From Anaerolineae bacterium (GTDB lineage Bacteria > Chloroflexota > Anaerolineae > Anaerolineales > Anaerolineaceae): a DNA stretch of 64,000 nucleotides. The notes beneath the pieces are model-generated. The model worked only from the letters and a program-made list of their open reading frames with translations. It ran no database searches and had not been told where the DNA came from. Below, one piece after another: positions 38,965-64,000 of this stretch; within the stretch, counting starts at the first letter, position 1, and every line of letters begins with the position of its first letter. Position numbers and translations under genes: made by a program. The DNA lies in contig JABUFD010000002.1 of the NCBI GenBank assembly GCA_013314735.1, forward strand, positions 310,001 through 374,000. Reading direction: 5' to 3'.

Positions 38965-40908
38965 TTATGACTCTGTCAGGATTGCGTTCGTGTCGTCTGA
39001 GGCTGCTTCTTTTGGCTCATTGTAATAGCTGCGATATTTGTTACTGTACTTATAGGCATAAGAAGAGTAGTAATGTTCATAGTAATAGCCATGCTTCTTT
39101 TCGGAAACCTGATTGAACAGAATTCCCACCACCTTCGCACCTATCCAGTTCATCTGTTCCAGCAGGCGTTTCAAGGACTTTATCTTCGTTTCACCGGGCT
39201 TGATGATCACAACAACGCCGTCGACTTCCTTGGCCAGGGCGAACGTTTCGGAGAAGAGCACCGGTGGGCAGTCGAAGACCAGGCGGTCTGCATGTTGTTC
39301 CAGTTGATGGACAAAAACGGGTGCCTGCTCCGCGATCATGTCCGGGGTTTCATCCGACAGCGAGCCGGAAGTTATGACAGACAGGTTACGGGTAATGGCC
39401 TGGGTGACTTCCTGTATAGATTGTTCTGTCATGCCGTCGATGAGCAGGTTGGAAAAGCCCTGCTTATTGTCCAGATGGTATAGTTTGTGGATCATCGGCT
39501 TGCGCAGGTCACTATCCACCAGTAAAGTTTTACGCCCTTGTTGCGCATAGGCAGCAGCCAGGTTGGCGGATACCGTGCTTTTCCCATCTCCGGGGTTGGG
39601 ACTGATCACCATTAAGGAGCGTACTTCATGCCCGTCGGTCTGGGTCAGTTCAATATTGTTGCGCATGATGCGGAACGCCTCCACCATCGGGGAACGCGGT
39701 TTCTCATTCATCAGTACAGTATCGCGGTACTGTTTGGGGATTTCGGATATCACGCCAATCACTGGCAGATCACACATCGCTTCCACCTGTTCCGGCAGCT
39801 GGATTTTGTCATTGAGATATTCAATCAGGAAAACGGTACCACCCGCCAACATCAGACCCAGGGCGATGCCAAGGCCAATATTGTTAACCAGTTTGGGGCT
39901 GACCGGTTCCTCTGGGGCGATCGCCATTTCGACCTGAACGATGATCGGTGTATTACGAAGCCGCTCGAGCCGGACGTTCTCATAGTTGGCTACAAGGGAG
40001 GTGTACATTTGCTGATAAAGAGCAAGATTAGACTTTAACTGTTGCAGCTCGTAGTTATCTTCGTTAGTCGTGCCATCATCCAATGCTGCATCATATTCCA
40101 ATAAGGTGAAATATTTTGTGCGGTAAAAATCCAGTTCCGCATTTGCCTGATCAAGGTCAAATTGCCGTTGGAAAATTTCCTGGTTGAGAGCATCAATTTC
40201 CTCTTGTGTGCCAACTGGTGCGCCTGTATAAATATTGATCGTTTGTATTGCCTCCAATTCGCGCTGAAGGCTTACCAACCCGGTTTTCTGAGGGATAATC
40301 GCTTGCTCAAGGCGGGTCATTTGGTCTTGAATTGAAGCGATCTGGTCAGAGATGTTCTCGCTGGACTTGTTGTCCATCGATTGTTCCAGATCGGAAATTT
40401 CCTGTTGGGAAGCAGCAATCTGATTTTCCATCTGGGTGATCTGAGCCTGAAGTGATTCTTCGGAACTGGCGAATTGCTGTGCCTGGAGGTTGGTGTTGTA
40501 ATCCATTAATACTGTCACCGCTGAATTCGCAATTTTCGCTGCATATTCGGGTTCGGGATGGGTGGCGGTAATCTGAAAAATGCGGGTGTTATTAATCAGG
40601 TTTCCGGTAATCTCCCCTTTCTTCACCTCCAAACCAACTATGGTGGAGATTTGATCAAGGATCGGCTGGGTGGAAAGGATCTGCGTGTATGTCTGCACCA
40701 GTTGATCCTGGTTGTACAGATAGTAATAATCCGATGAGCTCATGCTTCCATTATTGGAGGGGGAGGAGATCATCACCTTGGTGGTTGATGAGTACAAAGG
40801 GGTTTGAAAGCGTGTCAACAGGTAACCACCGACAGCTCCCACCGTAATCCCAACAATTAAAAGCCACAACCACTTTTTTATGATTTCCCAATAGTAACGA
40901 ATTTCCAT
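38965..40908 (-). CDS. Wzc-like tyrosine kinase / polysaccharide chain-length protein (copy 1)
   Basis: A 647-residue membrane protein: N-terminal Wzz domain between two helices, a long periplasmic coiled coil (Gln/Glu-rich, residues ~155-330), then a cytoplasmic BY-kinase. Walker A is SPNPGDGKST, Walker A' is LLVDSDLRKP and Walker B is LVFDCPP. The C-terminal tail is Tyr-rich (KKHGYYYEHYYSSYAYKYS), the site of autophosphorylation in this family. The start is ATG 40908 (GAAGGA upstream), by analogy with copy 2 which also begins MEIRYYWEI; the opening to 40920 is not used. Its leader carries the shared 22-nt element. Confidence 0.92.
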   Translation of the reverse strand: MEIRYYWEIIKKWLWLLIVGITVGAVGGYLLTRFQTPLYSSTTKVMISSPSNNGSMSSSDYYYLYNQDQLVQTYTQILSTQPILDQISTIVGLEVKKGEITGNLINNTRIFQITATHPEPEYAAKIANSAVTVLMDYNTNLQAQQFASSEESLQAQITQMENQIAASQQEISDLEQSMDNKSSENISDQIASIQDQMTRLEQAIIPQKTGLVSLQRELEAIQTINIYTGAPVGTQEEIDALNQEIFQRQFDLDQANAELDFYRTKYFTLLEYDAALDDGTTNEDNYELQQLKSNLALYQQMYTSLVANYENVRLERLRNTPIIVQVEMAIAPEEPVSPKLVNNIGLGIALGLMLAGGTVFLIEYLNDKIQLPEQVEAMCDLPVIGVISEIPKQYRDTVLMNEKPRSPMVEAFRIMRNNIELTQTDGHEVRSLMVISPNPGDGKSTVSANLAAAYAQQGRKTLLVDSDLRKPMIHKLYHLDNKQGFSNLLIDGMTEQSIQEVTQAITRNLSVITSGSLSDETPDMIAEQAPVFVHQLEQHADRLVFDCPPVLFSETFALAKEVDGVVVIIKPGETKIKSLKRLLEQMNWIGAKVVGILFNQVSEKKHGYYYEHYYSSYAYKYSNKYRSYYNEPKEAASDDTNAILTES

Positions 40909-40970
40909 AGTGTCCTTCATGTCTCAGTCATGGAACAATGATTGGCTTGATGAAACCTGGACAATTTTGG

Positions 40971-45225: not shown

Positions 45226-47181
45226 TTATTCTGCCGTTGGCTGCAGCGGCTCTTCGGGTGTTTGCGTCATTTCTGCGGTGGCTGGTTTGGAAGGATTGGA
45301 TTGTTGCTGTTCATGGTAATATTTTCGCGAATATTGATAACCATAGGCGGAGTAATAATGTTGATAATAATAACCATGCTTGCGTTCGGAAACCTGGTTG
45401 AATACAATCCCGATCACCTTCGCATTAATCCAGGTCATCTGGTCGATCAGGCGTTTTAGCGCGTTGATCTTGGTTTCGCCGGGTTTCACCACCACTATTA
45501 CGCCGTCGACTTCTTTGGCAAGCGTGAATGTTTCCGCAAACAATACAGGAGGGCAATCGAAGATGATCCGGTCTGCAGCACCGCGGAATTTCTTGACAAA
45601 CACCGGCGCCTGTTCTGTGATCATATCCGCAGTATCATCATTTATGATACCGCTGGGCATGACCATCAGGTTGCGTCCGACCATCTGAACCGCGGCACTG
45701 ATGTTATCACGGGTCAGGCCGTCACGCAGCAGGAGAGAAAAGCCGTTCTCATTTTTCAAATGGAACAGCCGGTGTACCATTGGCTTACGCAAATCGGCAT
45801 CCACCAACAGGGTTTTTCGGCCCTGTTGGGAATAAGCGGTTGCCAGGTTGGTTGAGATCGTGCTCTTCCCATCGCCGGGGTTGGGGCTGACGATCAAAAT
45901 AGATTTGAATTCTGTGTTGTTATCTTTCTGGATTAATTCGATGTTGGTTCGCAGGATACGGAACGATTCCACCAGTGGGGAGCGGGGTTTTTCATGCATC
46001 AGAACCGTATCACGGTATTCTTTGGGAATATCCGCAATGACACCAACCACCGGGAAATCACAGAGCGCTTCCACCTGTTCTGGCAGTTGGATGGTATCGT
46101 TCAGGTATTCGATCAGGAACACAATCCCGCCGGCCAGCATCAGTCCCAATGCTGCGCCCAGGCCGATGTTATTGAGCAGTACCGGCCGAATCGGGGTGTA
46201 ATCAGCGGTAGCGGCTTCCACCTGGACGATGGTGGAACTGTTTCGCAGGCGTTCGAGGCGGACATTCTCATAATTGCCTAACAATGTGCTGTACATCTGC
46301 TGGTATAGTGCCAATGTGGATTTTAATTGCTGTAATTGGCTGTTATTGCTGCCTGCCACGCTCTGGTTCTCATCGATCATCAATAGGTCAAAGTATTCTT
46401 GCCGATAAAAATTTAACGTCGCACGCAGCTCTTCCAAATCTAATTGTTGTTTAAAAAGCTGGGTATTGATATCAGCAATTTCCTCGTCAGTTCCATTGGA
46501 GCGCCCGGTGTAGGAATTATATTCTTTCAAAGTCTTCAGTTGAAGCTCCAATGCGATGATCTCTGAATTTTTATCGACCAGTTGGGTTTCCAGTGTATTG
46601 ATCTCCATCTGAATACCGGCGAGTTTCCCGGAGATGGTTTCAGTTGATTCATTGACTACGGTTTCTTCCAGCTCTGCGATCTGGTTTTGGGTATCGGTTA
46701 TTTGAGCCTCCACCTGTGAAATCTGTGCCTGCAATGATGATTCCGAGGTGGTAAATTGCCCGGACTGAAGTGTTTCGTTCTGGACCGTCAACACTCGAAC
46801 CAGTCCATTGGCGATGTCGGCAGCATTTTGGGGGTGGGAAGCTTCGACCGTGATTTGTAATACGCGGGTACCAGTGATCAGCCGGGCACTGACCTGGTTG
46901 ACTGAAATGGTGTAGCCGAGTTCCTGTGCAAGAGCATCCAGGATCGGCTGGGTTGTCAGAATTTGGATGTAGGTCTGGGCGAGTTGTTCTGCGTTATAAG
47001 AGGAGTAAAAATCGACAGAGGAACCGCTATTCGGTTGGGAGATCATGACCTTGGTGCTGGCGGCAAAAACCGGAGCCTGGTAATAGGTCAGCAGGTAACC
47101 GCCTGCGGCCCCCAACACCAATCCGAGAGCCAGCAGCCAGATCCATTTCTTTACAATTTCCCAGTAATAACGAATTTCCAT
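45226..47181 (-). CDS. Wzc-like tyrosine kinase / polysaccharide chain-length protein (copy 2)
   Basis: A 651-residue paralogue of the protein at 38965, with the same order: MEIRYYWEIVKKWIW start, two helices around a Wzz domain with coiled coil, BY-kinase with SPNPGDGKST (Walker A), LLVDADLRKP (Walker A'), IIFDCPP (Walker B) and a Tyr-rich tail (KHGYYYQHYYSAYGYQYS). It is the last gene of the minus-strand operon that begins with the sugar transferase at 51626, separated from the DegT gene by 16 nt. Expected to control length and export of the glycan through phosphorylation cycles. Confidence 0.92.
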   Translation of the reverse strand: MEIRYYWEIVKKWIWLLALGLVLGAAGGYLLTYYQAPVFAASTKVMISQPNSGSSVDFYSSYNAEQLAQTYIQILTTQPILDALAQELGYTISVNQVSARLITGTRVLQITVEASHPQNAADIANGLVRVLTVQNETLQSGQFTTSESSLQAQISQVEAQITDTQNQIAELEETVVNESTETISGKLAGIQMEINTLETQLVDKNSEIIALELQLKTLKEYNSYTGRSNGTDEEIADINTQLFKQQLDLEELRATLNFYRQEYFDLLMIDENQSVAGSNNSQLQQLKSTLALYQQMYSTLLGNYENVRLERLRNSSTIVQVEAATADYTPIRPVLLNNIGLGAALGLMLAGGIVFLIEYLNDTIQLPEQVEALCDFPVVGVIADIPKEYRDTVLMHEKPRSPLVESFRILRTNIELIQKDNNTEFKSILIVSPNPGDGKSTISTNLATAYSQQGRKTLLVDADLRKPMVHRLFHLKNENGFSLLLRDGLTRDNISAAVQMVGRNLMVMPSGIINDDTADMITEQAPVFVKKFRGAADRIIFDCPPVLFAETFTLAKEVDGVIVVVKPGETKINALKRLIDQMTWINAKVIGIVFNQVSERKHGYYYQHYYSAYGYQYSRKYYHEQQQSNPSKPATAEMTQTPEEPLQPTAE

Positions 47182-51823: not shown

Positions 51824-52282
51824 CTAATCCTCTACGATTTTCGTGAAGCCAGAGAGGATGATCTCGTTGAGTAATTCTGCGGTTTTGCGGAATTCCTGCA
51901 TTGGCTTCCCCACCGGATCTGGTATCTCGAAATGTTGACCGATCATTTCGCTCAACAGGAAGACTGAGGATGCCTGGGCAGGGAATTCATATTGCAAGGC
52001 TTCTTTATGGGAATTTTCCATTACCAGAACCCGGCGATGGACTTGTATATTGGCTTCGGTCAGCAATTTGGACCGATGGTTTCGTAAGTCCAGCCCACGT
52101 TCCTGCATGACCCTGATGGCTTTTGGGTCGGCTGCAAGCCCGTCGATTGCATAGGTGCCCAGGGATGCGGCTGTAATGGAATCATGGAGATGCAGTTCGG
52201 CAACCCGGGCAGCAAACAACTTTTCTGCCATGGGCGACCGGCAAATATTGGCAGTGCAGACAAAAACGATGGATTTTATCAA
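51824..52282 (-). CDS. Low-molecular-weight protein-tyrosine phosphatase (Wzb-like)
   Basis: A 152-residue cytoplasmic phosphatase. The catalytic P-loop is VCTANICRSP (C-x5-R-S) near the N-terminus and the general-acid Asp lies in IPDPVGKP. Such enzymes dephosphorylate the Tyr tails of Wzc-type kinases and so drive EPS export; two such kinases lie within 13 kb. I assign the start to TTG 52282, just before KSIVFVCTANICR, because AAGGA is 7 nt upstream; the frame opens to 52327, but that part overlaps the conserved leader element. It stands alone between the EPS operon and the CRISPR locus. Confidence 0.88.
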   Translation of the reverse strand: MIKSIVFVCTANICRSPMAEKLFAARVAELHLHDSITAASLGTYAIDGLAADPKAIRVMQERGLDLRNHRSKLLTEANIQVHRRVLVMENSHKEALQYEFPAQASSVFLLSEMIGQHFEIPDPVGKPMQEFRKTAELLNEIILSGFTKIVED

Positions 52283-52295
52283 CCAGTGATCCTTA

Positions 52296-52317
52296 TCATA
52301 GCTCCGCCCAACCGACA
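52296..52317 (-). promoter_or_regulatory. Conserved leader element, copy upstream of tyrosine phosphatase
   Basis: On the minus strand TGTCGGTTGGGCGGAGCT then ATGA, ending 13 nt before the TTG start and next to the ribosome site. In RNA, ACCGAU (52351-52356) can pair with GUCGGU inside the element, enclosing a perfect 6-bp hairpin (52328-52344). It matches the Wzc-leader copy at 20 of 22 positions. Confidence 0.55.
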
Positions 52318-52392
52318 CAACTATCAATCATCGTGCCTCGATGACACACAATCGGTGAGCGAGGGAATGTTCTACCCCTGTACCTTCCATGT

Positions 52393-52500: not shown

Positions 52501-52532
52501 GGAAAAACCTCATTTTGGAAAAGGGGATTTGG

Positions 52533-53435
52533 ATGGGTCACCAAGTAATACACCGAGAATCCGTTACACTATTGGCTACTTTGGGGAGTGAAGCCCAAGT
52601 GATTACCAGTACGGTCGATTTATTAATTCGTACTGGTCAGCAAATCAAGTGCCTCGTTGTTTTTCATACAGACGCCGGGTTGGACCCGATCGCGAATTCC
52701 CTCGTGAGGTTGAAGGCGGAAATAGATTCAGGGGTGTATGCGGGGCTTCAGGTGGTTTATGAAGAAATCGTAGACCACCTCGGGCATCCATTATCAGATT
52801 TTGATGATACTACGGGTACGGAAAGTTTTTTCCGTATGTTTTACCGTGTATTATGGCGATTAAAGCAACAGAACGCACGCGTGCATATCTGTGCTTCCGG
52901 CGGGCGGAAGACCATGTCGATTTATGCGATGGTGGCGGCCCAACTGTTATTTGATGAAGATGACCGCTTTTGGCATTTGTTTTCAGGGGGGAATTTCCTG
53001 AAAGAAAAAAGGTTGCATCCGCAGTTGGAAGATCTGGCGGAGTTAATAGAGGTTCCGGTGATCCATTGGGGTTTACTCAGCCCAGTGGTATCGACACTGC
53101 GGAAGGTGGAAGATCCCTACCAGGCGATTGCGGCTATCCGGGAATTGCAGCTGCGGCAGAAATGGAGTTTGGCTGATCAGTTTGTCCAGAACCAGTTGAC
53201 GCCAGCACAGCGATCAGTAGTCGCGCTCCTGGTGCGGGAGGGGTTATCTGATCAACAGATCGCGGACCGGTTGGTCTTATCAGCGCGCACGATCGAACGT
53301 CACCTGGGGGATGCTTACCAGCGTGCGACCGACTTTTGGGGATTCCGGGAACGTGTATCCCGCTCTCAATTAATTACCTTATTGCAACTGTATTACAGTA
53401 CCCGATTGGGGGATATCCCTCATGACACAAGATGA
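52533..53435 (+). CDS. CARF-domain protein (NE0113/Csm6-CARF-like) fused to LuxR-type HTH
   Basis: A 300-residue protein. Residues ~8-190 form a CARF domain: VTLLATLGSEAQVITSTVDL matches the A-T-L-G-x-x-P-Q-V-(V/I)-T start of the Cas_NE0113 family, and CASGGRKTMSIYAMVAAQL (GGRKTMS at residues 123-129) is the ligand-binding loop. Residues ~222-290 are a GerE/LuxR-type helix-turn-helix: LTPAQRSVVALLVREGLSDQ, then QIADRLVLSARTIERHL. No HEPN R-x4-H is present, so it is not a Csm6 ribonuclease. It is best read as a transcription factor sensing cyclic oligoadenylate, with possible ring-nuclease activity. ATG 52533 has AAAAGGGGA 6 nt upstream. Confidence 0.8.
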   Translation: MGHQVIHRESVTLLATLGSEAQVITSTVDLLIRTGQQIKCLVVFHTDAGLDPIANSLVRLKAEIDSGVYAGLQVVYEEIVDHLGHPLSDFDDTTGTESFFRMFYRVLWRLKQQNARVHICASGGRKTMSIYAMVAAQLLFDEDDRFWHLFSGGNFLKEKRLHPQLEDLAELIEVPVIHWGLLSPVVSTLRKVEDPYQAIAAIRELQLRQKWSLADQFVQNQLTPAQRSVVALLVREGLSDQQIADRLVLSARTIERHLGDAYQRATDFWGFRERVSRSQLITLLQLYYSTRLGDIPHDTR

Positions 53436-53522
53436 TGATTCCTGTATCATCATGGATGATGTCGTCACGGTCTGATCAAGGGGAGACTCACGGGGGACAG
53501 CAGAGGGGGATCGCCCGTGACG
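53432..53522 (+). promoter_or_regulatory. Repeat-rich candidate operator between CARF-HTH gene and cas10
   Basis: The 118-nt gap holds an 8-bp inverted repeat ATGATGAT/ATCATCAT (53432-53453, overlapping the stop codon) and an inverted repeat CGTCACGG (53463-53470)/CCGTGACG (53515-53522). TCACGG occurs a third time at 53488-53493. This is a likely binding region for the upstream HTH protein or a processing signal. AAGGAGGT then precedes the cas10 start. Confidence 0.45.
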
Positions 53523-53553
53523 GCATCACAACTTTTTTTCATAAGGAGGTGTA

Positions 53554-56076
53554 ATGGCAGAAAATCGAATCAGAGCCGCAATGGCAGGATTGCTTCACGA
53601 TATAGGGAAACTGGCGCAGCGTGCCAGTGATGATCCCACCCGGCCGCCGGGAGACACTCGTGAAGAAGGTCAGCCCGTGCATGCCGCCTATTCGATCCGC
53701 TGGATCGAGCAGGAATTGCTAAAGAAGAATGACCTATATCGTCAGTTCGCCCTTCCAGGGGCGTACCATCATCGCCCAAGCGTGTATGTTGGCGCTGATA
53801 CAGCTTTGGTATGGGCGGTTGCATTGGCGGATAAACTCAGCGCGGGTGAACGGGATGACCGCGAACGGAAAAACCAGGAACTGGTTCCCCGGCAGATGTT
53901 GACCATTTTTGATAGCCTTTCCCTTGCTGGCGAAAATCAGCGAAGTCAGCATTACCTGCCGTTGGCGCCGTTGGCGCTGTCTGCAAAATCCATTTTTCCT
54001 GAGGAGCCTTGTTCTCCGGAAGAGAGCCGCAGGCAGTACCGGCAGTTGTTGGAATCCCTCGCCCAGGGTTTTACGGCCTTGTCTTCTGGTGCAGCAGCTG
54101 CACTTGAGCAGATGATGTCTCTGCTACAGCGCCACACCTGGTGCGTGCCTTCTTCCTATTATTACAACCGCCCGGATATCTCTTTGTATGACCACAGCCG
54201 GATGACGGCAGCATTGGCGGTATGCCTGTCTGAGATGCCGGAAGCAGGCCTTAAAGCGACTCACCAGGCTGTGGTGGAGTTGTTCAAGCTTGACGGCAAG
54301 ATGGATAAGCTGCCTGCACCCGCACAGGATGTACTGAACAAGGATGCTGTAATGTTGATTGGCGGTGATATTTCCGGCATCCAGGATTTCATCTATACCA
54401 TTGGCAGCAAAAATGCTGCGAAAACACTGCGCGGACGATCTTTCTACCTGCAATTACTGACCGAAGCGGTGCTGCGCTTTGTGCTACGTGAACTGGATTT
54501 GCCCTATACTAACGTGATCTATAGCGGTGGTGGTCATTTCTTCCTGCTGGCACCACTCAGTGCTTATGATCAATTGCCTGCACTTCGCCGCAAAGTTAGT
54601 GAACGTTTATTGGCAGCACATGGGGTGAAGTTGTACCTCGCGCTGGATGGGGTTGCCGTGCCGTTCTCGGGTTTCCGGGTGGGTGCGTTCCCGGAACATT
54701 GGGGAAGGATGCACACCCGGATCGCTGAAGCCAAGAACCATCGGTTCAGTGAACTGGGAGACGATCTGTACCAGAAAGTGTTTGCTCCCAAGCCCCACGG
54801 TGGGAACCAGGAGCATACCTGCCGGGTATGTGGCGTAGAAGATGAGCACGGCTATTCGAACAAAGAACAAGATGATACCGGGGAACCGTTTTTCCTGTGT
54901 TCATTATGCGATTCGTTCGATGCCGAAATTGGGAAGGATCTCCCGGGGAGTGATCTCATCGCCCTGGCATTGGGGAATGATGTTCCGCTGGGTGACAAAA
55001 TCACTGCCAGTACCATCCTTGCTTCCTTCGGGATGCAGATCGAATTTCTGAAGCGCGGTACTGAGAAGATCAATATTGACGACGCGGACCGGGTGATTTT
55101 ATGGGCACTGGATGATCCGAAAGATGGAAAGTTCCCGACCCACGCTGTCATCCCATCGGTTCCATGGCTCCATTACACTGTCAACCAGGTCCCGAAGATG
55201 ACGTTTGATGCATTGCAAAAAAAGTCAAAGGGCATCGAACGGCTGGGTGTGCTGCGGATGGATGTGGATAACCTGGGCAGTATCTTCCAGGAGGGCTTTG
55301 GCAAAGGCGACCAATCACGGGCAACCTTATCCCGTCTGGCGACGCTCAGTTTTCAGTTATCCCTGTTTTTCGAAGGCTGGCTGAAACGGCTGATCGAATC
55401 GGAAAATCACCTTGATGGGAGTGCCCCCTTGATCTATGCCGTTTATACCGGAGGCGATGATTTATTCCTGATTGGACCGTGGGACAACATGCCAGCACTC
55501 GCGCAGGAAATTGCGGCGTCCTTTGATCAATATACCGGCGGTAACCCGGGCTTGCATCTGAGCGGGGGACTGGCGTTCATCCATGGCAAGTACCCGGTGC
55601 ATGCCGCGGCGGAGGACGCAGGAGACCTGGAAAAGCAAGCCAAGGATGCCGGACGGAACCGGATCGCCTTTCTTGGGGAGGTGTGGACCTGGATGGAATT
55701 TTCCAGCCTGGTAGATAAAAAAGAGAAACTGGTGCAGATCGTTGGGAATGAGACCAACGGCGGATTGGGTGGATCCCACAGCTTGCTGCAGCGGTTGCAG
55801 GAACTGGATCATAAACAGACGGAAGCCAGCCGGTCGCGGAAAGATGGCAAGGCCATCTGGGGACCATGGATGTGGCTGGCCGACTACCAATTGGTGCGCA
55901 TGGCTGACCAGGTGAAGAAAAAATCACCAGCATTGCATACTGCGTTGGTGAACCTGCGGGAGGATTTGCACCAGACTAATCCCCCTTACGCTGAATTGCA
56001 TATCTGGGCAAAGGGTGCCCGGTGGGCGCAGTTGGAATTGAGAAAAAAGAAGCATCATGATGATGAATCGGAATAA
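53554..56076 (+). CDS. cas10: Type III-A Cas10 (Csm1), cyclic oligoadenylate synthase
   Basis: An 840-residue large subunit of the Csm complex. The HD nuclease motif LLHDIGK has His15-Asp16. A first palm domain contains GGDISGIQDFIYTIGSKNA; a zinc finger has C423-x2-C426 and C449-x2-C452; the second palm domain has the catalytic GGDD at residues 633-636 (YTGGDDLFL). Both HD (ssDNA cleavage) and GGDD (conversion of ATP to cyclic oligoadenylate) therefore look active. It lies directly upstream of csm2 (21-nt gap). AAGGAGGT precedes the ATG. Confidence 0.96.
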   Translation: MAENRIRAAMAGLLHDIGKLAQRASDDPTRPPGDTREEGQPVHAAYSIRWIEQELLKKNDLYRQFALPGAYHHRPSVYVGADTALVWAVALADKLSAGERDDRERKNQELVPRQMLTIFDSLSLAGENQRSQHYLPLAPLALSAKSIFPEEPCSPEESRRQYRQLLESLAQGFTALSSGAAAALEQMMSLLQRHTWCVPSSYYYNRPDISLYDHSRMTAALAVCLSEMPEAGLKATHQAVVELFKLDGKMDKLPAPAQDVLNKDAVMLIGGDISGIQDFIYTIGSKNAAKTLRGRSFYLQLLTEAVLRFVLRELDLPYTNVIYSGGGHFFLLAPLSAYDQLPALRRKVSERLLAAHGVKLYLALDGVAVPFSGFRVGAFPEHWGRMHTRIAEAKNHRFSELGDDLYQKVFAPKPHGGNQEHTCRVCGVEDEHGYSNKEQDDTGEPFFLCSLCDSFDAEIGKDLPGSDLIALALGNDVPLGDKITASTILASFGMQIEFLKRGTEKINIDDADRVILWALDDPKDGKFPTHAVIPSVPWLHYTVNQVPKMTFDALQKKSKGIERLGVLRMDVDNLGSIFQEGFGKGDQSRATLSRLATLSFQLSLFFEGWLKRLIESENHLDGSAPLIYAVYTGGDDLFLIGPWDNMPALAQEIAASFDQYTGGNPGLHLSGGLAFIHGKYPVHAAAEDAGDLEKQAKDAGRNRIAFLGEVWTWMEFSSLVDKKEKLVQIVGNETNGGLGGSHSLLQRLQELDHKQTEASRSRKDGKAIWGPWMWLADYQLVRMADQVKKKSPALHTALVNLREDLHQTNPPYAELHIWAKGARWAQLELRKKKHHDDESE

Positions 56077-56097: not shown

Positions 56098-56490
56098 ATG
56101 GCAAATTCTGCAATTACAAGAATAATGATGGCGGACGAAAGCGGGAAGGAATTGGTCCAATTCGCTGAACAAACCGCGGACAAACTGGTCAAAGATAACT
56201 TGAGGGCGACTCAGATCCGCAATATCTTTACCGAGGTACGTCAGATCGGCGCTTTATGGAAACAGGATAATGCCCGTGCCATGCGCCGTCTGCAAATGCT
56301 GAAGCCCAAGATGGCTTACCAGACAGCGCGCCAGCGCCAGGTTGGCGGCCTGCGGGATGTGCTTTCTGATGCGATTGATGAGGTGGAAAAACGCCCAGCG
56401 GGTCCCGAGCGCGAGGCTGCATTCCAGCGTTTTTTGGATTTATTTGAAGCGATCCTTGCGTACCATAAAGCACTCGGTGGAAAGAACTGA
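56098..56490 (+). CDS. csm2: Csm2 small subunit
   Basis: A 130-residue, mostly helical protein of the size and position expected for Csm2 (Cas11 of type III-A), which forms the inner filament of the complex along the crRNA. Conserved-looking segments are LRATQIRNIFTEVRQI and MLKPKMAYQTARQRQVGGLR. It is preceded by AAAGGAG and lies 16 nt before csm3. Confidence 0.92.
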   Translation: MANSAITRIMMADESGKELVQFAEQTADKLVKDNLRATQIRNIFTEVRQIGALWKQDNARAMRRLQMLKPKMAYQTARQRQVGGLRDVLSDAIDEVEKRPAGPEREAAFQRFLDLFEAILAYHKALGGKN

Positions 56491-56506: not shown

Positions 56507-57280
56507 ATGGAAACGATTAAAATGTCAGGCCGGATTATATTGTTAATGAACATTAAAGCCCTTAGCGGTTTGCATATCGGCGGTTCATCAAGTGGGTTGG
56601 AAATTGGCGGAGTTGACAATCCCGTCATCCGTGATGCGGTATCGCAGCAACCCTATATCCCCGGTTCCAGCCTCAAAGGTAAAATGCGTTCACAACTGGA
56701 GAAATTCATGGGGCTGCGGCAAAACAATACCATGGGCAACCGGGTGACAATCCACACCTGCAACACACAAGCAGATTATGCTGACTGTGACCTGTGCCAG
56801 ATCTTTGGAGTGCCAGGCGAAGTGGATGCAACGGGACCAACTCGCCTGGTGGTGCGGGATGTGCGCATGACAGACCATAGTGTCAGCGCTTTGCAAAATG
56901 CACAGACAGACCTGGCATACACCGAGTTGAAAACGGAAGTCTCGATCGACCGTGTGACCAGTGCTGCTTCTCCTCGCAATATTGAGCGGGTACCGGCGGG
57001 AACAGATTTTGGGCCTGCTGAGATGGTATTTACCCTGTACAGCAAAGAAGACTTGAAGCTCTTCAAGCATATCCTCGAAGGATTGCAGCTGTTGGAGGAT
57101 GATTACCTGGGTGGCAGCGGTTCACGCGGCAGCGGAAAGATCGCTTTCACCGACATCAAACTCACTGGCCGCAATCGCAAGGATTACAACCAGCCAATTG
57201 TTCTTGGTCAATATGATTCCCTTCAGGCTTTTTCACAGGCGTATGAGAATTTGGACTTCACGCCGTTGTTCGAGGAGTGA
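56507..57280 (+). CDS. csm3: Csm3 backbone subunit, target RNA endonuclease
   Basis: A 257-residue RAMP (Cas7 group). SGLHIGGSSSGLEIGGVDNP and VIRDAVSQQPYIPGSSLKGK carry the crRNA-binding core; the Asp in GGVDNPVIRD corresponds to the catalytic Asp that cuts target RNA every six bases in known Csm3. A Cys-rich insert (HTCNTQADYADCDLC) may bind zinc. LGGSGSRGSGKIAF is the C-terminal Gly-rich loop. The stop overlaps the csm4 start region. Confidence 0.95.
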   Translation: METIKMSGRIILLMNIKALSGLHIGGSSSGLEIGGVDNPVIRDAVSQQPYIPGSSLKGKMRSQLEKFMGLRQNNTMGNRVTIHTCNTQADYADCDLCQIFGVPGEVDATGPTRLVVRDVRMTDHSVSALQNAQTDLAYTELKTEVSIDRVTSAASPRNIERVPAGTDFGPAEMVFTLYSKEDLKLFKHILEGLQLLEDDYLGGSGSRGSGKIAFTDIKLTGRNRKDYNQPIVLGQYDSLQAFSQAYENLDFTPLFEE

Positions 57281-57285
57281 TGCCG

Positions 57286-58350
57286 ATGAACGTGGAAACC
57301 TGGAAAATACAACCTACAGGTCTTTCCGGATTGCACCTTGGTCGGCATGGGATTGAGCAGGAACATTCCTCGGTATTGTTCAGTTCTGACAGCCTGTTTT
57401 CGGCATTGACCGCCGCGGTGGCCCAGTTGGATGGAGAGGAAGGCGTGGAGCGCTGGATGGCATCACTGCCGGGTGATGACCCGCCATTCCTGCTCACTTC
57501 AGCTTTCCCGTATGCCGGTGAGGTACGGTTTTACCCGGCCCCACAGCTGGGTTTCACCACCGGTGTCGCAACGCCTGGCGTAGATACGGTGCGCCCCAAG
57601 GACCTGAAGAAAATCCGGTTTGTTTCCGAGGGTGCCTTTAAGGCGCTCGTTGACGGGTCGCAGAGCCTGGCAGGTATGGTTATGGATGCGAAGTGCCGTA
57701 ACGGAGAATTCCTGTGGCTGCCTTCGGAAAGTGCCCATTTGCCAGAAGCGGTTTCCAACAGGAAGCAGCCCATTGTTACCAGTGATGAACGTCCGCGGGT
57801 ACTGATTGACCGCGTGAGTAACGCCTCTGCACTCTTTTTTACCGGCTTTGTGCAGTTTGCGCCGAATTGCGGTTTGTGGTTCGGAGTGCGCTGGCGAAAA
57901 ATGAATACTGCCTTACGGCAGCAATTTCAAGAAGGGGTGCAACTGCTGGAGAGCAGCGGTATTGGCGGTGAACGCAACGCCGGGTATGGGCAGGTGGCGA
58001 TCGAAGCGTGGGATGCGGTGGAAATGCCAGATCCTACCGGCAAATCCTGGGTCAGTCTCAGCCGTTACCTCCCACGGGAGGATGAAATGCCCGCCTTGCG
58101 AGAAGCTTTTGCTGCCTACCAGTTGGAGGGCGTCGGCGGTTGGCTGCAAAGCACGGGCAGCAAGGCAGAACGCCGGCGGACGGTGAACATGCTCAAGGAA
58201 GGCGCGGTATTGGGTGCCCTGCCAAAAGATTGGGCCGGGCAGATCGCTGACGTGCAGCCGGACTACAATGGAACAAAGCCCATCGGCCACCCGGTCTATC
58301 GCAGCGGACTGGCATTGGGGGTTGGCCTGACAATAGGAGGCACAGTATGA
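57286..58350 (+). CDS. csm4: Csm4 subunit (Cas5 group)
   Basis: A 354-residue RAMP that binds the 5' tag of crRNA and docks Cas10. IQPTGLSGLHLGRHGIEQEH and SVLFSSDSLFSALTAAVAQL form the N-terminal RAMP strand and helix; the late segment LLESSGIGGERNAGYGQVAI is the Gly-rich loop. ATG 57286 is preferred to ATG 57280 because GAGGAG lies 8 nt before it; the earlier ATG would be only 2 nt from that site. Overlaps csm5 by ATGA. Confidence 0.93.
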   Translation: MNVETWKIQPTGLSGLHLGRHGIEQEHSSVLFSSDSLFSALTAAVAQLDGEEGVERWMASLPGDDPPFLLTSAFPYAGEVRFYPAPQLGFTTGVATPGVDTVRPKDLKKIRFVSEGAFKALVDGSQSLAGMVMDAKCRNGEFLWLPSESAHLPEAVSNRKQPIVTSDERPRVLIDRVSNASALFFTGFVQFAPNCGLWFGVRWRKMNTALRQQFQEGVQLLESSGIGGERNAGYGQVAIEAWDAVEMPDPTGKSWVSLSRYLPREDEMPALREAFAAYQLEGVGGWLQSTGSKAERRRTVNMLKEGAVLGALPKDWAGQIADVQPDYNGTKPIGHPVYRSGLALGVGLTIGGTV

Positions 58351-59423
58351 CCAACTACACGATGAAGATCACCACACTCTCGCCACTGCATATCGGCAGC
58401 GGTGATGAACTTCGCCTTGGTTTTGATTTCATCATCAACGGTGGGCGTACCTATCGATTAAATGTGGACGCGATTCTTGAAGATCATCAGGCATTGCTGA
58501 AACCGCCCTACCCACTGCCTGGTAGTGTTGTGCGTGAAGCCGACCTGGCCAGGGACGACTATTTTCGCTATATCCTCCGTGGTGAACCGCGTTCAATAAA
58601 GGCAGATGCGCGGCTGCAAGCCTGCATCAAGGATGTGTATGACCAACCGTATTTACCAGGCTCCTCCCTCAAGGGTGCCCTGCGTACTGCCCTGGCATGG
58701 ACCGGCTGGAAGGAAGTCGGCATCAAGCTGGATCGGCGCGATGTGGGATACAACCGTGTCTTTGCCGGCCAGGGACTGGAGCATCGTATTTTCGGGGAAG
58801 ATCCCAATCACGATTTGTTGCGCGCGCTGCAGGTCAGTGACAGTTTCGCAAAGGATGCCCAGGGACGCCTGTTTGTTGCCAACGCGCAGGTGTTGAATCA
58901 GAACAGCATGGGCACGCCGATCGAGCTGGAATCGGTGCTGCCGGAAACCGGCTTCATCGGTTCGCTGAAAGTGGATGATATCCTGCTCAGTCAACCGATG
59001 GCACGTAACCTGGGTTTCAACGAACGCGGCCGTTGGTTGTCTGAATTGACGGACCGTGTGCAGCGCCACAGTCATGCGCGGCTCGAGAAGATGCGGGAGT
59101 GGTTCAAAGATGCGGACGGAGCCAGCAGGATTTCCAGTTTTATTGATCAACTGTACAGTGTAAAACCTGCCAGCAACCAGGCATTGCTCCAGGTAGGCTG
59201 GGGCACCGGCTGGGATGGAAAAACCTTCTGGACGCACTTGCAGCAGGATGAATACCTGTTTGAGAAACTGGTCAGCGATTTCCGTATGATCCGGCAGGGA
59301 AAACGCAACATGGGGGATACCTTCCCCAAGTCCCGGCGGGTGGCCATGTCGGTTGGAAAAGCTGGGACGAAACCGTTGGTCACTTTCGGCTGGTGCTTGC
59401 TGGAATTGAAGGAAATCCAATGA
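58347..59423 (+). CDS. csm5: Csm5 subunit (Cas7 group)
   Basis: A 358-residue RAMP at the 3' end of the crRNA in the Csm complex. The start MKITTLSPLHIGSGDELRLG and YLPGSSLKGALRTALAWTG are the typical Csm5 RAMP motifs. The C-terminus carries GWGTGWDGKTFW, also usual in the family. It is flanked by overlaps with csm4 and csx1, consistent with tight translational coupling. Confidence 0.94.
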   Translation: MTNYTMKITTLSPLHIGSGDELRLGFDFIINGGRTYRLNVDAILEDHQALLKPPYPLPGSVVREADLARDDYFRYILRGEPRSIKADARLQACIKDVYDQPYLPGSSLKGALRTALAWTGWKEVGIKLDRRDVGYNRVFAGQGLEHRIFGEDPNHDLLRALQVSDSFAKDAQGRLFVANAQVLNQNSMGTPIELESVLPETGFIGSLKVDDILLSQPMARNLGFNERGRWLSELTDRVQRHSHARLEKMREWFKDADGASRISSFIDQLYSVKPASNQALLQVGWGTGWDGKTFWTHLQQDEYLFEKLVSDFRMIRQGKRNMGDTFPKSRRVAMSVGKAGTKPLVTFGWCLLELKEIQ

Positions 59424-60670
59424 AATTGTTAACATTCTTCGGGATTGGCAATTACCAACCTACCATTTATGCCTGGGATGGGCGGCAGGTGCAGGCTTCT
59501 TATGCGCCGGTTGCCAGCGCCGCTTTCCTTGCGCCGGATGAGGTGATTATCTTTCTGACTGAGGACGTCCGTCAGCATGCGCATTTTGGTGCTCTGTGCC
59601 AGGCTTTACCACAGGGCATCACCGTGCGCCCGGTGGGTATCCCCCTGGGCCGGAACGAGTCTGAATTGTGGACAATTTTCAATATTGTGGCATCCCAGGT
59701 AAATCCCGGGGAAACGGTGGCGTTCGACATCACCCACGGTCTGCGGTCATTCCCCTTGCTTGGTCTCCTGGTGGCAGCTTATCTACGCAGCGGACTGGAT
59801 GTGCGGTTGGAAGCTGTTTTCTACGGCGCGTATGACGTGGGGCGGGAAAACGGTGACGGGATCACACCATTTTTTGATCTCACCCCCATGCTGCAATTGC
59901 TGGATTGGGCCGAGGCAGCTGATCGCTTGAACCGCACCGGCGATTCGCGTTACCTTGCCTCGCTGTTGGGGCAAAAGAAAAAAGAAATGGCACAACAGAG
60001 CGGTACAGGCAAGGCTCGGTTTGAGATTCTCAGCCCGGTTGACCGCCTGATGGGAACCCTGACCCAGCTTTCGAACAACACCCATCTAATTCGTCCCGTG
60101 GATGCGGTGGCAGATGCCGCCAGGCTTGCGTCTCATCTGGAGGAAGCCAACCCCATCTTTGAGCGCTTTCCCAACACCGCTCCATTTGCGTTGTTGTTGA
60201 ATGCAATCCATCACACCTACCAGCCGCTGGCAGGCGACCAACCTTCCGATGGCGAAAACAGTTTCAGGGAGAGCCTTCTGCGCCAGAAGAGCCTGATTGA
60301 TTGGTATGTGGAACGTGAACACTGGGTGCAGGCAGTGACCGTTGCCCGGGAGTGGCTGGTGAGTTGGGTCATGTACCGGTTTGGTCTGCCTGACATGGTC
60401 AGTTCAAATGACCGTCATCGGATCGAACAGGCCATTAATGTGGAATCGCACGCGCTGATTGATGCGAAGAAGGAATCACGGGAATACCAGCCAATCTTTC
60501 TGCGCAGCCTTCCCAATGTGAAGGAGGTTCTGGACCTATGGAACAAGACCGCAATGGTGCGCAATGATATTGACCATGCCGGCATGCGGAGTGATCCGAA
60601 AAAACCTGACAGCCTGATCCGCGACATTCGTGAGGTTGCACTTCGAATTGCCGGGCTCTCGTTGGAGTGA
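59420..60670 (+). CDS. csx1: Csx1 (TM1812-type) CARF-HEPN ribonuclease
   Basis: A 416-residue protein. The N-terminal CARF domain starts LLTFFGIGNYQPTIYAWDGR, followed by VAFDITHGLRSFPLLGLLVA, the ligand-binding loop of the TM1812/Csx1 family. The C-terminal HEPN domain has the R-x4-H motif at R381-H386 (VRNDIDHAG). Binding of cyclic oligoadenylate (usually cA4) should activate unspecific RNA cleavage. It overlaps csm5 by ATGA at 59420, so the frame opening at 59393 is not the start. Confidence 0.92.
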   Translation: MKLLTFFGIGNYQPTIYAWDGRQVQASYAPVASAAFLAPDEVIIFLTEDVRQHAHFGALCQALPQGITVRPVGIPLGRNESELWTIFNIVASQVNPGETVAFDITHGLRSFPLLGLLVAAYLRSGLDVRLEAVFYGAYDVGRENGDGITPFFDLTPMLQLLDWAEAADRLNRTGDSRYLASLLGQKKKEMAQQSGTGKARFEILSPVDRLMGTLTQLSNNTHLIRPVDAVADAARLASHLEEANPIFERFPNTAPFALLLNAIHHTYQPLAGDQPSDGENSFRESLLRQKSLIDWYVEREHWVQAVTVAREWLVSWVMYRFGLPDMVSSNDRHRIEQAINVESHALIDAKKESREYQPIFLRSLPNVKEVLDLWNKTAMVRNDIDHAGMRSDPKKPDSLIRDIREVALRIAGLSLE

Positions 60671-60673
60671 ATC

Positions 60674-61606
60674 ATGTTATTAATTTCCCTTGTCGGTGAA
60701 CAACCGATTCCCAATGTTCTCCCTTTCTGGCAGTACCCGGGGCGGTATCACCTGGCGCAGTTCGCGGCCACGGAACGGACGTTGCCGATCGCGCAGGCGC
60801 TGGCAACCACGATTGCCGAAGACCCCGCCCTGGGCAATATGGAAGTACTGCCACCGCTGGTGCTGGATGCGTATGATCTGCAGGGCTGCCGGCGACATAT
60901 CGCGAAAACGATCTCGGAAGTTGAGAACCGCGGCGAAGCCATTGCCATCAACCTGACCGGCGGTACCAAGATCATGGTGATGGGCGCCATGTTGGCAGCG
61001 TTCGGTACCACGATGCCATTGATGTATATCAGCACGGAGTGTTCTGAGATCATCCATTATCACTCCGACGGCACCGAAAAATTCCGTGATCCTTTCCAGG
61101 TTTCGGTTTCGATTGAGCAATACCTGAAGGCCCATGGCTTTGAGGTCAGCAATAATTCTGCGTTCAATCCGCACCTGGGGCAATACCAGGGGGTGGATAA
61201 AATTGGGGATACATTGGAGCTGCGTGTGGAGCGCCTGTTGAAAGAGAGCGGTTATTTCGATGATGTACGCCGGGGGGTGCATATCCGCCGCCAGGGAAAA
61301 CAGGGTCCGGTGGTCAATGAACTGGATGTAGTGGCGATCAAGAACGGTGTCCTGGCAATCTGTTCCTGTAAATCGGGGAAAAATGTGACCAAGGAAATGA
61401 TCTATGAATTGGATTCACTGTCGAGCCGTGAAAACATGGGCATCTACTGCGGCAAGGTCATGTGTTTTGACCATGCCGAGTTGACTTCCGGTTTCAAAGC
61501 GCGTACCCAGGTTGAGGGAGTGAAACTGGTGTACGGCGAAAAAATCAATGTGATCGCAGACGTGATGCTGAGTACGATCGAGCCTGCTGCGGGGAGGTCT
61601 GGATGA
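60674..61606 (+). CDS. Can2/Card1-like CARF nuclease
   Basis: A 310-residue protein. The CARF part contains AIAINLTGGTKIMVMGAMLA (ligand loop), and the C-terminal part is a PD-(D/E)xK-like nuclease of the DUF1887/Card1/Can2 type: LRVERLLKESGYFDDVRRGV and NELDVVAIKNGVLAICSCKSG. The residue before Cys-Lys, often Glu (E-x-K), is Ser231 here; E216/D218 and K233 remain. Activity is therefore likely but not sure. Known relatives nick DNA and/or RNA when bound to cA4. It overlaps csx15 by ATGA. Confidence 0.85.
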   Translation: MLLISLVGEQPIPNVLPFWQYPGRYHLAQFAATERTLPIAQALATTIAEDPALGNMEVLPPLVLDAYDLQGCRRHIAKTISEVENRGEAIAINLTGGTKIMVMGAMLAAFGTTMPLMYISTECSEIIHYHSDGTEKFRDPFQVSVSIEQYLKAHGFEVSNNSAFNPHLGQYQGVDKIGDTLELRVERLLKESGYFDDVRRGVHIRRQGKQGPVVNELDVVAIKNGVLAICSCKSGKNVTKEMIYELDSLSSRENMGIYCGKVMCFDHAELTSGFKARTQVEGVKLVYGEKINVIADVMLSTIEPAAGRSG

Positions 61607-61986
61607 TCCTGTTAAACTTCTCCCATCCCATCACACCTGACCAGGTGGCGCAGATCGAGGCGATCACCGGGGGAACGGTTGATCGGGTGGTCAACCTGCC
61701 GACGCATTTTGACAATACGCAATCATTCCTGCCGCAGTTTGCGGCGTTAATGGCCGCGGTGCCATTAACCGCTGTAGAACTGCAAACGCTGCCAATCCTG
61801 GTGAACCTGCCGTCGTTGAATTTTATCGCCGGGCTGGTACTGGCGGAATTGCATGGGCGCATGGGATATTTCCCGCCAATCCTGCGCACCCGCCCGGTGC
61901 CCGAGGCACTGCCCCCGCGTTATGAGGTGGTGGAAATTTTAAACCTCAACCAGGTTCGGGAGGATGCCCGTGGCAAACGTTACTGA
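61603..61986 (+). CDS. csx15: Csx15-family CRISPR accessory protein
   Basis: A 127-residue protein that starts MILLNFSHPITPDQVAQIEA, the hallmark start of the Csx15 family, and is conserved in NLPSLNFIAGLVLAELHGRM. Csx15 is regularly found beside type III effectors with CARF domains. It has been suggested to bind or degrade cyclic oligoadenylate and so limit signalling; I treat that role as a hypothesis. It overlaps cas6 by about 20 nt. Confidence 0.85.
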   Translation: MILLNFSHPITPDQVAQIEAITGGTVDRVVNLPTHFDNTQSFLPQFAALMAAVPLTAVELQTLPILVNLPSLNFIAGLVLAELHGRMGYFPPILRTRPVPEALPPRYEVVEILNLNQVREDARGKRY

Positions 61987-62884: not shown

Positions 62885-62984
62885 GGGAAGCGGGTTTTGC
62901 ATACACCTCAAAAAAAGGGGCGTTTTTTTACCCTTTTTTTCAAGGTGGATGCAGGAACCTTAAAGAAGGGGAAAACCCGCTCCC
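62885..62984. terminator. Large imperfect hairpin between cas6 and CRISPR array
   Basis: Inner stem: TGCAT-CACCT-AAAAAAAGGG (62898-62920) pairs with CCCTTTTTTT-AGGTG-ATGCA (62931-62953), interrupted by single mismatches. Outer stem: GGGAAGCGGGTTTT (62885) pairs with AAAACCCGCTCCC (62972). The T-runs make a terminator on either strand; it probably ends the cas transcript and insulates the array. Confidence 0.75.
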
Positions 62985-63089: not shown

Positions 63090-64000
63090 GTCTAAAACAA
63101 TAAACCCCCGTTTAGGGGATTAAGACAATCATTATATAGGCAATGCTTAGATGATAGGCATTTGTCTAAAACAATAAACCCCCGTTTAGGGGATTAAGAC
63201 GAATTAATTCTCATTAATTTCATATTGCTTACATTTATTTGTCTAAAACAATAAACCCCCGTTTAGGGGATTAAGACCCCCCAACAAATCTTGAGGGTAT
63301 CCACTCCGCTTTAACGTCTAAAACAATAAACCCCCGTTTAGGGGATTAAGACGCTGTAACGTAAATGAATTTATCGTCATCCCAGAATCTTATGGGTCTA
63401 AAACAATAAACCCCCGTTTAGGGGATTAAGACCTCCAGTTAGCAGGCTGATATTGCCGCAGCTGCCGCCTCTCGTCTAAAACAATAAACCCCCGTTTAGG
63501 GGATTAAGACGCTGATTGCAACTTGCGCGTCCATTCCAACGTTATCGACCAGTCTAAAACAATAAACCCCCGTTTAGGGGATTAAGACCCGCCTTAATAT
63601 CTGCGGAGTTAACCGCAGTTATTTTTGTCTAAAACAATAAACCCCCGTTTAGGGGATTAAGACCAAAAATACGTAGCCGGTCATACTATCTTCTTTCTGG
63701 TCTAAAACAATAAACCCCCGTTTAGGGGATTAAGACACGGCCGGCCATCGTTGAGATAGAATACTTCCGAATCCCTCGTCTAAAACAATAAACCCCCGTT
63801 TAGGGGATTAAGACGGGAATATACCTTTATATTTATTTTCACCTTTATTGTTGTCTAAAACAATAAACCCCCGTTTAGGGGATTAAGACTAGAAAATAAC
63901 CGATTATAAAATAGTGTTTTTTCTGTGAGTCTAAAACAATAAACCCCCGTTTAGGGGATTAAGACATAACTGTTATACCATTTTACAACTCCAATAATTG
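63090..64000 (+). CRISPR. CRISPR array, 12 identical 37-nt repeats, 3' end outside window
   Basis: Twelve repeats start at 63090, 63164, 63241, 63316, 63396, 63474, 63552, 63627, 63700, 63778, 63853 and 63929. Each begins GTCTAAAACAATAAA, has the hairpin CCCC-CGTTTA-GGGG and ends ATTAAGAC. I saw no variation between copies. Eleven complete spacers are 36-43 nt and differ from each other; a twelfth is cut by the window end (35 nt seen). The last 8 nt, ATTAAGAC, resemble the type III crRNA 5' tag and lie right after the hairpin, the expected Cas6 cut point, so transcription runs to the right from the leader. Confidence 0.98.

Follow-up and report, generated by a model that had tools for sequence, protein, structure and literature searches.

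Organisation of the locus

The window, i.e. the whole stretch of 64,000 nucleotides that was analysed, carries a CRISPR locus at its right end. A gene coding for a CARF domain fused to a LuxR-type helix-turn-helix (HTH) lies directly upstream of cas10-csm2-csm3-csm4-csm5-csx1-can2-csx15-cas6, and the array follows:

52533-53435, + strand: CARF-LuxR regulator gene, 300 amino acids from the ATG at 52533; alternative start TTG at 52515
52560-53057, + strand: CARF domain, about residues 10-175 (Pfam PF09623; Sso2081 profile match; Cad1/Crn1 fold match with Z 17-18)
53190-53411, + strand: LuxR/GerE-type HTH, about residues 220-293 (Pfam, PDB profile search, AlphaFold2)
53554-56076, + strand: cas10/csm1 with GGDD and HDIGK (TIGR02578, 1.2e-191; motifs)
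56098-56490, + strand: csm2 (profile match)
56507-57280, + strand: csm3 (profile match)
57277-58350, + strand: csm4 (profile match)
58347-59423, + strand: csm5 (profile match)
59420-60670, + strand: Csx1-like CARF-HEPN RNase, RNDIDH at residue 381 (profile match; motif)
60674-61606, + strand: Can2/Card1-like CARF-PD-(D/E)xK nuclease (profile match)
61603-61986, + strand: csx15, cA4 ring nuclease/sponge family (NF040560, 9.4e-47; PMC13148439)
61964-62821, + strand: cas6 (profile match)
63090-64000, + strand: CRISPR array, repeat GTCTAAAACAATAAACCCCCGTTTAGGGGATTAAGAC, 24 repeats, continuing beyond the window to the equivalent of 64882

The first-pass annotation had placed the fusion gene at the head of a type III-A operon. 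This assignment held, Cas10/Csm1, Csm2, Csm3, Csm4 and Csm5 all scoring above cut-off. With GGDD and the HD motif kept in Cas10 and RNDIDH in the HEPN protein, both the production of the signal and the nuclease output appear intact. The signal at this locus is likely to be cA4: the families of the Csx1-like and Can2/Card1-like nucleases include cA4-activated members (PMC9704534), and binding or degradation of cA4 is known for members of the Csx15 family (PMC13148439).

Upstream of the regulator gene, on the opposite strand, lies an exopolysaccharide-type cluster, in which two similar Wzc-like chain-length/tyrosine-kinase genes were read from the sequence (38965-40920 and 45226-47181, - strand). 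A low-molecular-weight phosphatase-like gene, read in the same way, is found beside the CRISPR locus (51824-52327). The leader of the array contains GGGGAAAACCCGC (62968-62980), which equals the operator core of relatives (see below) and pairs with GCGGGTTTT at 62890. As a leader operator this sequence was rejected: it is part of an inverted repeat of the leader, and it was absent from the other leaders read.

The CARF-LuxR protein

In Pfam the N-terminal part of the protein matched Cas_NE0113 (PF09623) at residues 22-203 (E 5.6e-28, 98.6 bits versus a cut-off of 23). At residues 220-263 GerE/LuxR (PF00196) was narrowly above cut-off (1e-5, 25.5 bits versus 23.5) and about tied with Sigma70_r4_2 (7.7e-6, barely above cut-off). 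When a profile of 28 relatives was compared with the PDB, the C-terminal part matched NarL (6.8e-8), GerE (1.3e-7), VraR and other LuxR-type proteins first, and sigma factors scored 5.5e-5 or weaker. The sigma-factor reading of the HTH was therefore put in second place, and the LuxR/GerE-type HTH of the first-pass annotation was retained. Its recognition helix is SARTIERHL (residues 250-258). The GGRKTMS loop described earlier is present as CARF motif II (residues 123-129), and motif I is ATLGSE (residues 15-20). No HEPN family was reported for the protein, in line with the earlier reading.

In the same PDB search the CARF half matched the ring nuclease Sso2081 (3.5e-10). The PADLOC model CARF3 (PDLC01851) covered nearly the whole protein (306.9 bits, 3.1e-92, residues 11-290 of 300, profile positions 3-276 of 279). 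Three other models scored below their cut-offs: Csx14 (TIGR03642, 51.8 versus 90.35), the NCBIfam NE0113/Csm6 ring nuclease (TIGR02584, 32.3 versus 80.65) and Csa3 (TIGR01884, 15.7 versus 60.2), the HTH of the regulator being of LuxR type and not winged.

The AlphaFold2 model (15-sequence alignment) had a pLDDT of 89.8 and a pTM of 0.78. It contained a CARF Rossmann fold, the point on which a structure prediction had been proposed as a check, and a four-helix HTH (helices 224-236, 240-247, 251-269 and 277-293). The best structure match of the CARF domain was Cad1 (Z 18.4, rmsd 2.3, 182 aligned residues), followed by Crn1 (Z 17.4), with Csa3 behind at about Z 12. The CARF domain, earlier called NE0113/Csm6-type, is nearest to the Crn1 ring nucleases and to Cad1, not to Csm6.

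Sso2081 relies chiefly on D75 and R105 for cA4 binding; K106 acts by stabilising the intermediate of the cleavage reaction, and efficient cleavage requires S11, the serine of motif I. Can2 and Card1 have no GTS and do not cleave (PMC10018336). In the profile alignment D75, R105 and K106 correspond to D89, R125 and K126 of the regulator, whereas S11 corresponds to E20, so that motif I reads GSE instead of GTS. The ring-nuclease motif I GTS with its catalytic serine is thus not found in the regulator. Within the 28-sequence alignment D89 and R125 are nearly invariant, and K or R predominates at the position of K126; motif I varies in relatives (GSK, STE, GGQ). Since D89, R125 and K126 are kept and S11 is replaced by E20, we infer that the protein is a sensor that binds cyclic oligoadenylate without cleaving it.

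Relatives and the regulator-cas10 junction

Of 396 genomes of the same class, 139 had a match, and among the matches listed from these genomes 111 were essentially full length; a scan of genome contigs that used this one protein as query yielded no relatives. At least 50 of the 111 had a listed Cas10 palm-domain hit no more than 8 kb away (a lower bound; many contigs are short). All 50 were on the same strand as cas10 and 49 were upstream of it, usually 1.8-2.2 kb ahead of the palm domain, which makes the regulator gene the one adjoining cas10. With the proteins of the window as tblastn queries the whole operon was found, its order kept, in Ornatilinea, Anaerolinea and other genomes, and the fusion is conserved beside csm genes, the point for which a homologue search had been proposed as a check. 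Single relatives occurred in records labelled KSB1, Abditibacteriales and Deltaproteobacteria; viral contigs yielded none. Because relatives from many genera keep both halves, including the HTH and its recognition helix, and also the place beside cas10, the fusion is, as judged from sequence comparison, well beyond chance. An in-frame stop interrupts the CARF-LuxR gene of Anaerolinea thermolimosa IMO-1 (L052, 10496-10498), where the operator and the cas operon are retained.

Reading the junctions between the regulator gene and cas10 across loci revealed a shared element composed of GGG-N4-CCC, two bases, ATGAC(A/G), 17 bases and TANNNT. In the window it corresponds to the first three of these features:

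53410-53419, no strand assigned: predicted operator, dyad GGGATATCCC, which overlaps the regulator gene at its 3' end (cross-locus comparison)
53422-53427, + strand: -35 hexamer ATGACA of the predicted cas10 promoter (cross-locus comparison)
53445-53450, + strand: -10 hexamer TATCAT, 17 bp from the -35 (cross-locus comparison)
53457-53528, + strand: predicted hairpin in the 5' leader, with a G-run loop between the arms 53457-53470 and 53515-53528 (sequence)

The predicted promoter agrees with the sigma-70 consensus at 10 of 12 positions and has a 17-bp spacer; transcription is predicted to start near 53457, about 7 bases past the -10. Loci of the Anaerolineaceae have the element across the final codons of the regulator gene. 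At five other loci (L034, L035, L036, L039, L041) it lies beyond the stop codon, so that it is not explained by coding constraint. Generic palindrome scoring of single loci was powerless and was abandoned: short dyads were equally common in shuffled DNA, which leaves the shared motif as the sole informative signal.

Within the 4.09-Mb genome the dyad and -35 in their exact form are found a single time, at the regulator-cas10 junction; looser matches across the genome occurred at the chance rate given by a reversed control. The exact dyad and promoter had 12 matches in the 396 genomes of the class, six of them at a regulator-cas10 junction (reversed control, 3). An exact search across the order gave nine matches in 251 genomes (reversed control, 0), all between a CARF-LuxR gene and cas10; most operator counts use loci from which the motif was defined, and two of these nine (G411 and G528) come from genomes outside that definition. 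The element was absent from two genomes of the same order (G280 and G367) that have Cas10 and are without CARF-LuxR among the matches listed. The first-pass annotation had named the cas operon or other genes as targets; the conserved dyad and promoter between the regulator gene and cas10 allow this to be narrowed to the cas operon as the likely target. The full operator-promoter pattern was also seen at L098 (G247:C41:31613-31653) after a short LuxR-HTH sequence (41-43% identity) that has no CARF hit, with an unrelated gene downstream.

Loci were grouped by recognition helix into class A (n=15), class B (n=16) and class C (n=33). The dyad followed by ATGAC (one mismatch at most) was present at 11 of the 15 class A loci (shuffle mean 0.03) and at none of the class B or class C loci. 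AGGRA-N4-TTCC was found at 8 of the 16 class B loci versus 0.77 in shuffles, and TCAGAG-N4-CTCTGA at 10 of the 33 class C loci versus 1.55, most class C loci being without a clear dyad. One genome (G271) has both a class A and a class B protein, and the dyad after each of them is of the kind that goes with its class (L053, L050). The operator class tracks the protein tree with two changes, so that the matching of helix and operator is not independent evidence; the pairing is consistent with co-evolution in about two events. TCAGAG-N4-CTCTGA dyads were observed between the regulator gene and cas10 in a distant subfamily with the helix KTVDTHKT (L109-L113, L117, L120-L122), apparently in tandem at some loci.

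The leader hairpin is followed by T7 and then by the cas10 ribosome-binding site. Rfam had no match at the junction. A long hairpin opens the predicted cas10 transcript in about 10 of the 16 leaders read (besides the window, L051-L056, L036, L039, L041, L142); its stem sequence varies by locus, most loops carry G-runs ((A)GGGGG..(A)GGGG), and a T-run often precedes the ribosome-binding site. The hairpin may act as an attenuator or as a leader to which a protein binds.

Proposed mode of action and its meaning

These results support the earlier reading of the protein as a cyclic-oligoadenylate-responsive transcription factor. That it is a transcription factor is almost certain; it very likely acts on the GGG-N4-CCC dyad, and sensing of cyclic oligoadenylate is highly probable. 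Combining these parts, we regard it as probable that the protein is a LuxR-type regulator which responds to cyclic oligoadenylate and controls the type III-A operon through the dyad, more likely as an activator. The Csm complex would meet foreign RNA, and Cas10 would then make cyclic oligoadenylate, most likely cA4. A dimer of the regulator's CARF domains would bind the ligand without cleaving it, and binding would alter the action of the paired LuxR-type HTHs on the dyad abutting the cas10 -35. From a position at about -42.5 the regulator would contact RNA polymerase, most likely boosting transcription of cas10-csm-csx1-can2-csx15-cas6. The result would be a feed-forward loop, which Csx15 would close by removing cA4.

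The sign of regulation is the least firm part, with activation somewhat favoured over repression. As a repressor relieved by the signal, the protein would sit on the dyad in quiet cells, block RNA polymerase at the -35 and leave on binding the ligand. The promoter, being near consensus, may not need an activator and could fire unaided, and the operator abuts the -35. Sites of repressors, however, are more often found over the -10 or the start. The centre of the dyad falls before the -35, at about -42.5 relative to the predicted start, where sites of LuxR-type activators usually lie; the lux box, a 20-bp inverted repeat, has its centre at -42.5 (PMC3376562). Activation is favoured because of this position, and repression appears unlikely.

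In a negative-feedback scheme the regulator would drive cas10 at rest, and cyclic oligoadenylate would remove it from the DNA to limit a toxic response. Ring nucleases and sponges show that damping is needed (PMC12409355), and in models of Csa3 the cA4-induced movement of the winged HTH looked incompatible with DNA binding (PMC8844856). Damping would, however, already be provided by Csx15 of the same operon, and we consider the scheme quite improbable. The same holds for the reading that dyad and promoter are real but serve another regulator, the CARF-LuxR protein acting elsewhere in the genome. Protein and dyad are indeed linked by position and co-occurrence only, but all nine order-wide matches adjoin a CARF-LuxR gene, the two Cas10 genomes in which no such gene was listed have no element, and the genome with two CARF-LuxR proteins has a different dyad beside each. 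It is very unlikely that the protein is a Crn1/Csx14-like ring nuclease or cA4 sponge with an HTH that only aids dimerisation: Crn1 is among the closest CARF relatives and the Csx14 model matched below cut-off (Csx14 has been counted as Crn1; PMC12409355), but motif I is GSE and not GTS, the HTH and recognition helix are conserved, and an operator-like dyad adjoins the gene.

The proposed activator resembles several known proteins in part. Csa3 likewise combines a CARF sensor with a C-terminal DNA-binding domain, regulates CRISPR genes and binds cA4 (PMC8844856, PMC8699464), both of which are predicted for the regulator; DNA binding of archaeal Csa3 was unchanged by cA4 (PMC8844856), a point against the proposed mode of action. 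The literature confirms the earlier statement that its HTH is winged (MarR-like; PMC8844856), whereas that of the regulator is of LuxR type. The CARF domains of the two are only distantly similar, and Csa3 is encoded with archaeal type I cassettes whereas the regulator is bacterial and lies inside a type III-A locus. Crn1 (Sso2081, Sis0455) and Csx14 have the closest CARF domains by sequence profile and share the D, R and K of the cA4 site; Crn1, however, is a stand-alone CARF protein with the motif-I serine, and the regulator has E20 and a C-terminal LuxR domain. Cad1, the best fold match, was solved with cA4 and cA6, and its effector is an adenosine deaminase. LuxR, NarL and GerE share the HTH family and the lux-box-like dyad position predicted here, but their sensor is an acyl-homoserine-lactone or receiver domain instead of CARF. 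The NE0113/CARF3 proteins (PF09623, PDLC01851) belong to the same CARF family; a 2014 paper predicted NE0113 proteins to be transcription regulators (PMC4012209), the PADLOC label of PDLC01851 names only the CARF part, and the literature consulted describes no LuxR domain, operator or target promoter for them. Transcriptional regulators appear among the effectors in a 2025 survey, whose main text gives no details of them (PMC12669027).

In the literature consulted no account was found of a LuxR-type output, of the place before cas10 or of the operator; the 2020 CARF classification may mention the HTH. To our knowledge, nearly all known bacterial cyclic-oligoadenylate outputs are enzymes or membrane proteins. 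We consider it an evenly balanced question whether a widespread class of bacterial type III loci has a transcription factor of its own that is gated by the second messenger, together with an operator, so that the cyclic oligoadenylate from Cas10 would act back on cas10 transcription as a built-in amplifier switch with a LuxR-type output. If the proposed reading is true, proteins counted as Crn1/Csx14 or as plain CARF3 may include regulators, and a cA4-responsive promoter would be usable as a reporter tool. The cas operon, with its short and defined operator, would become a target that the signal reaches directly at the level of transcription.
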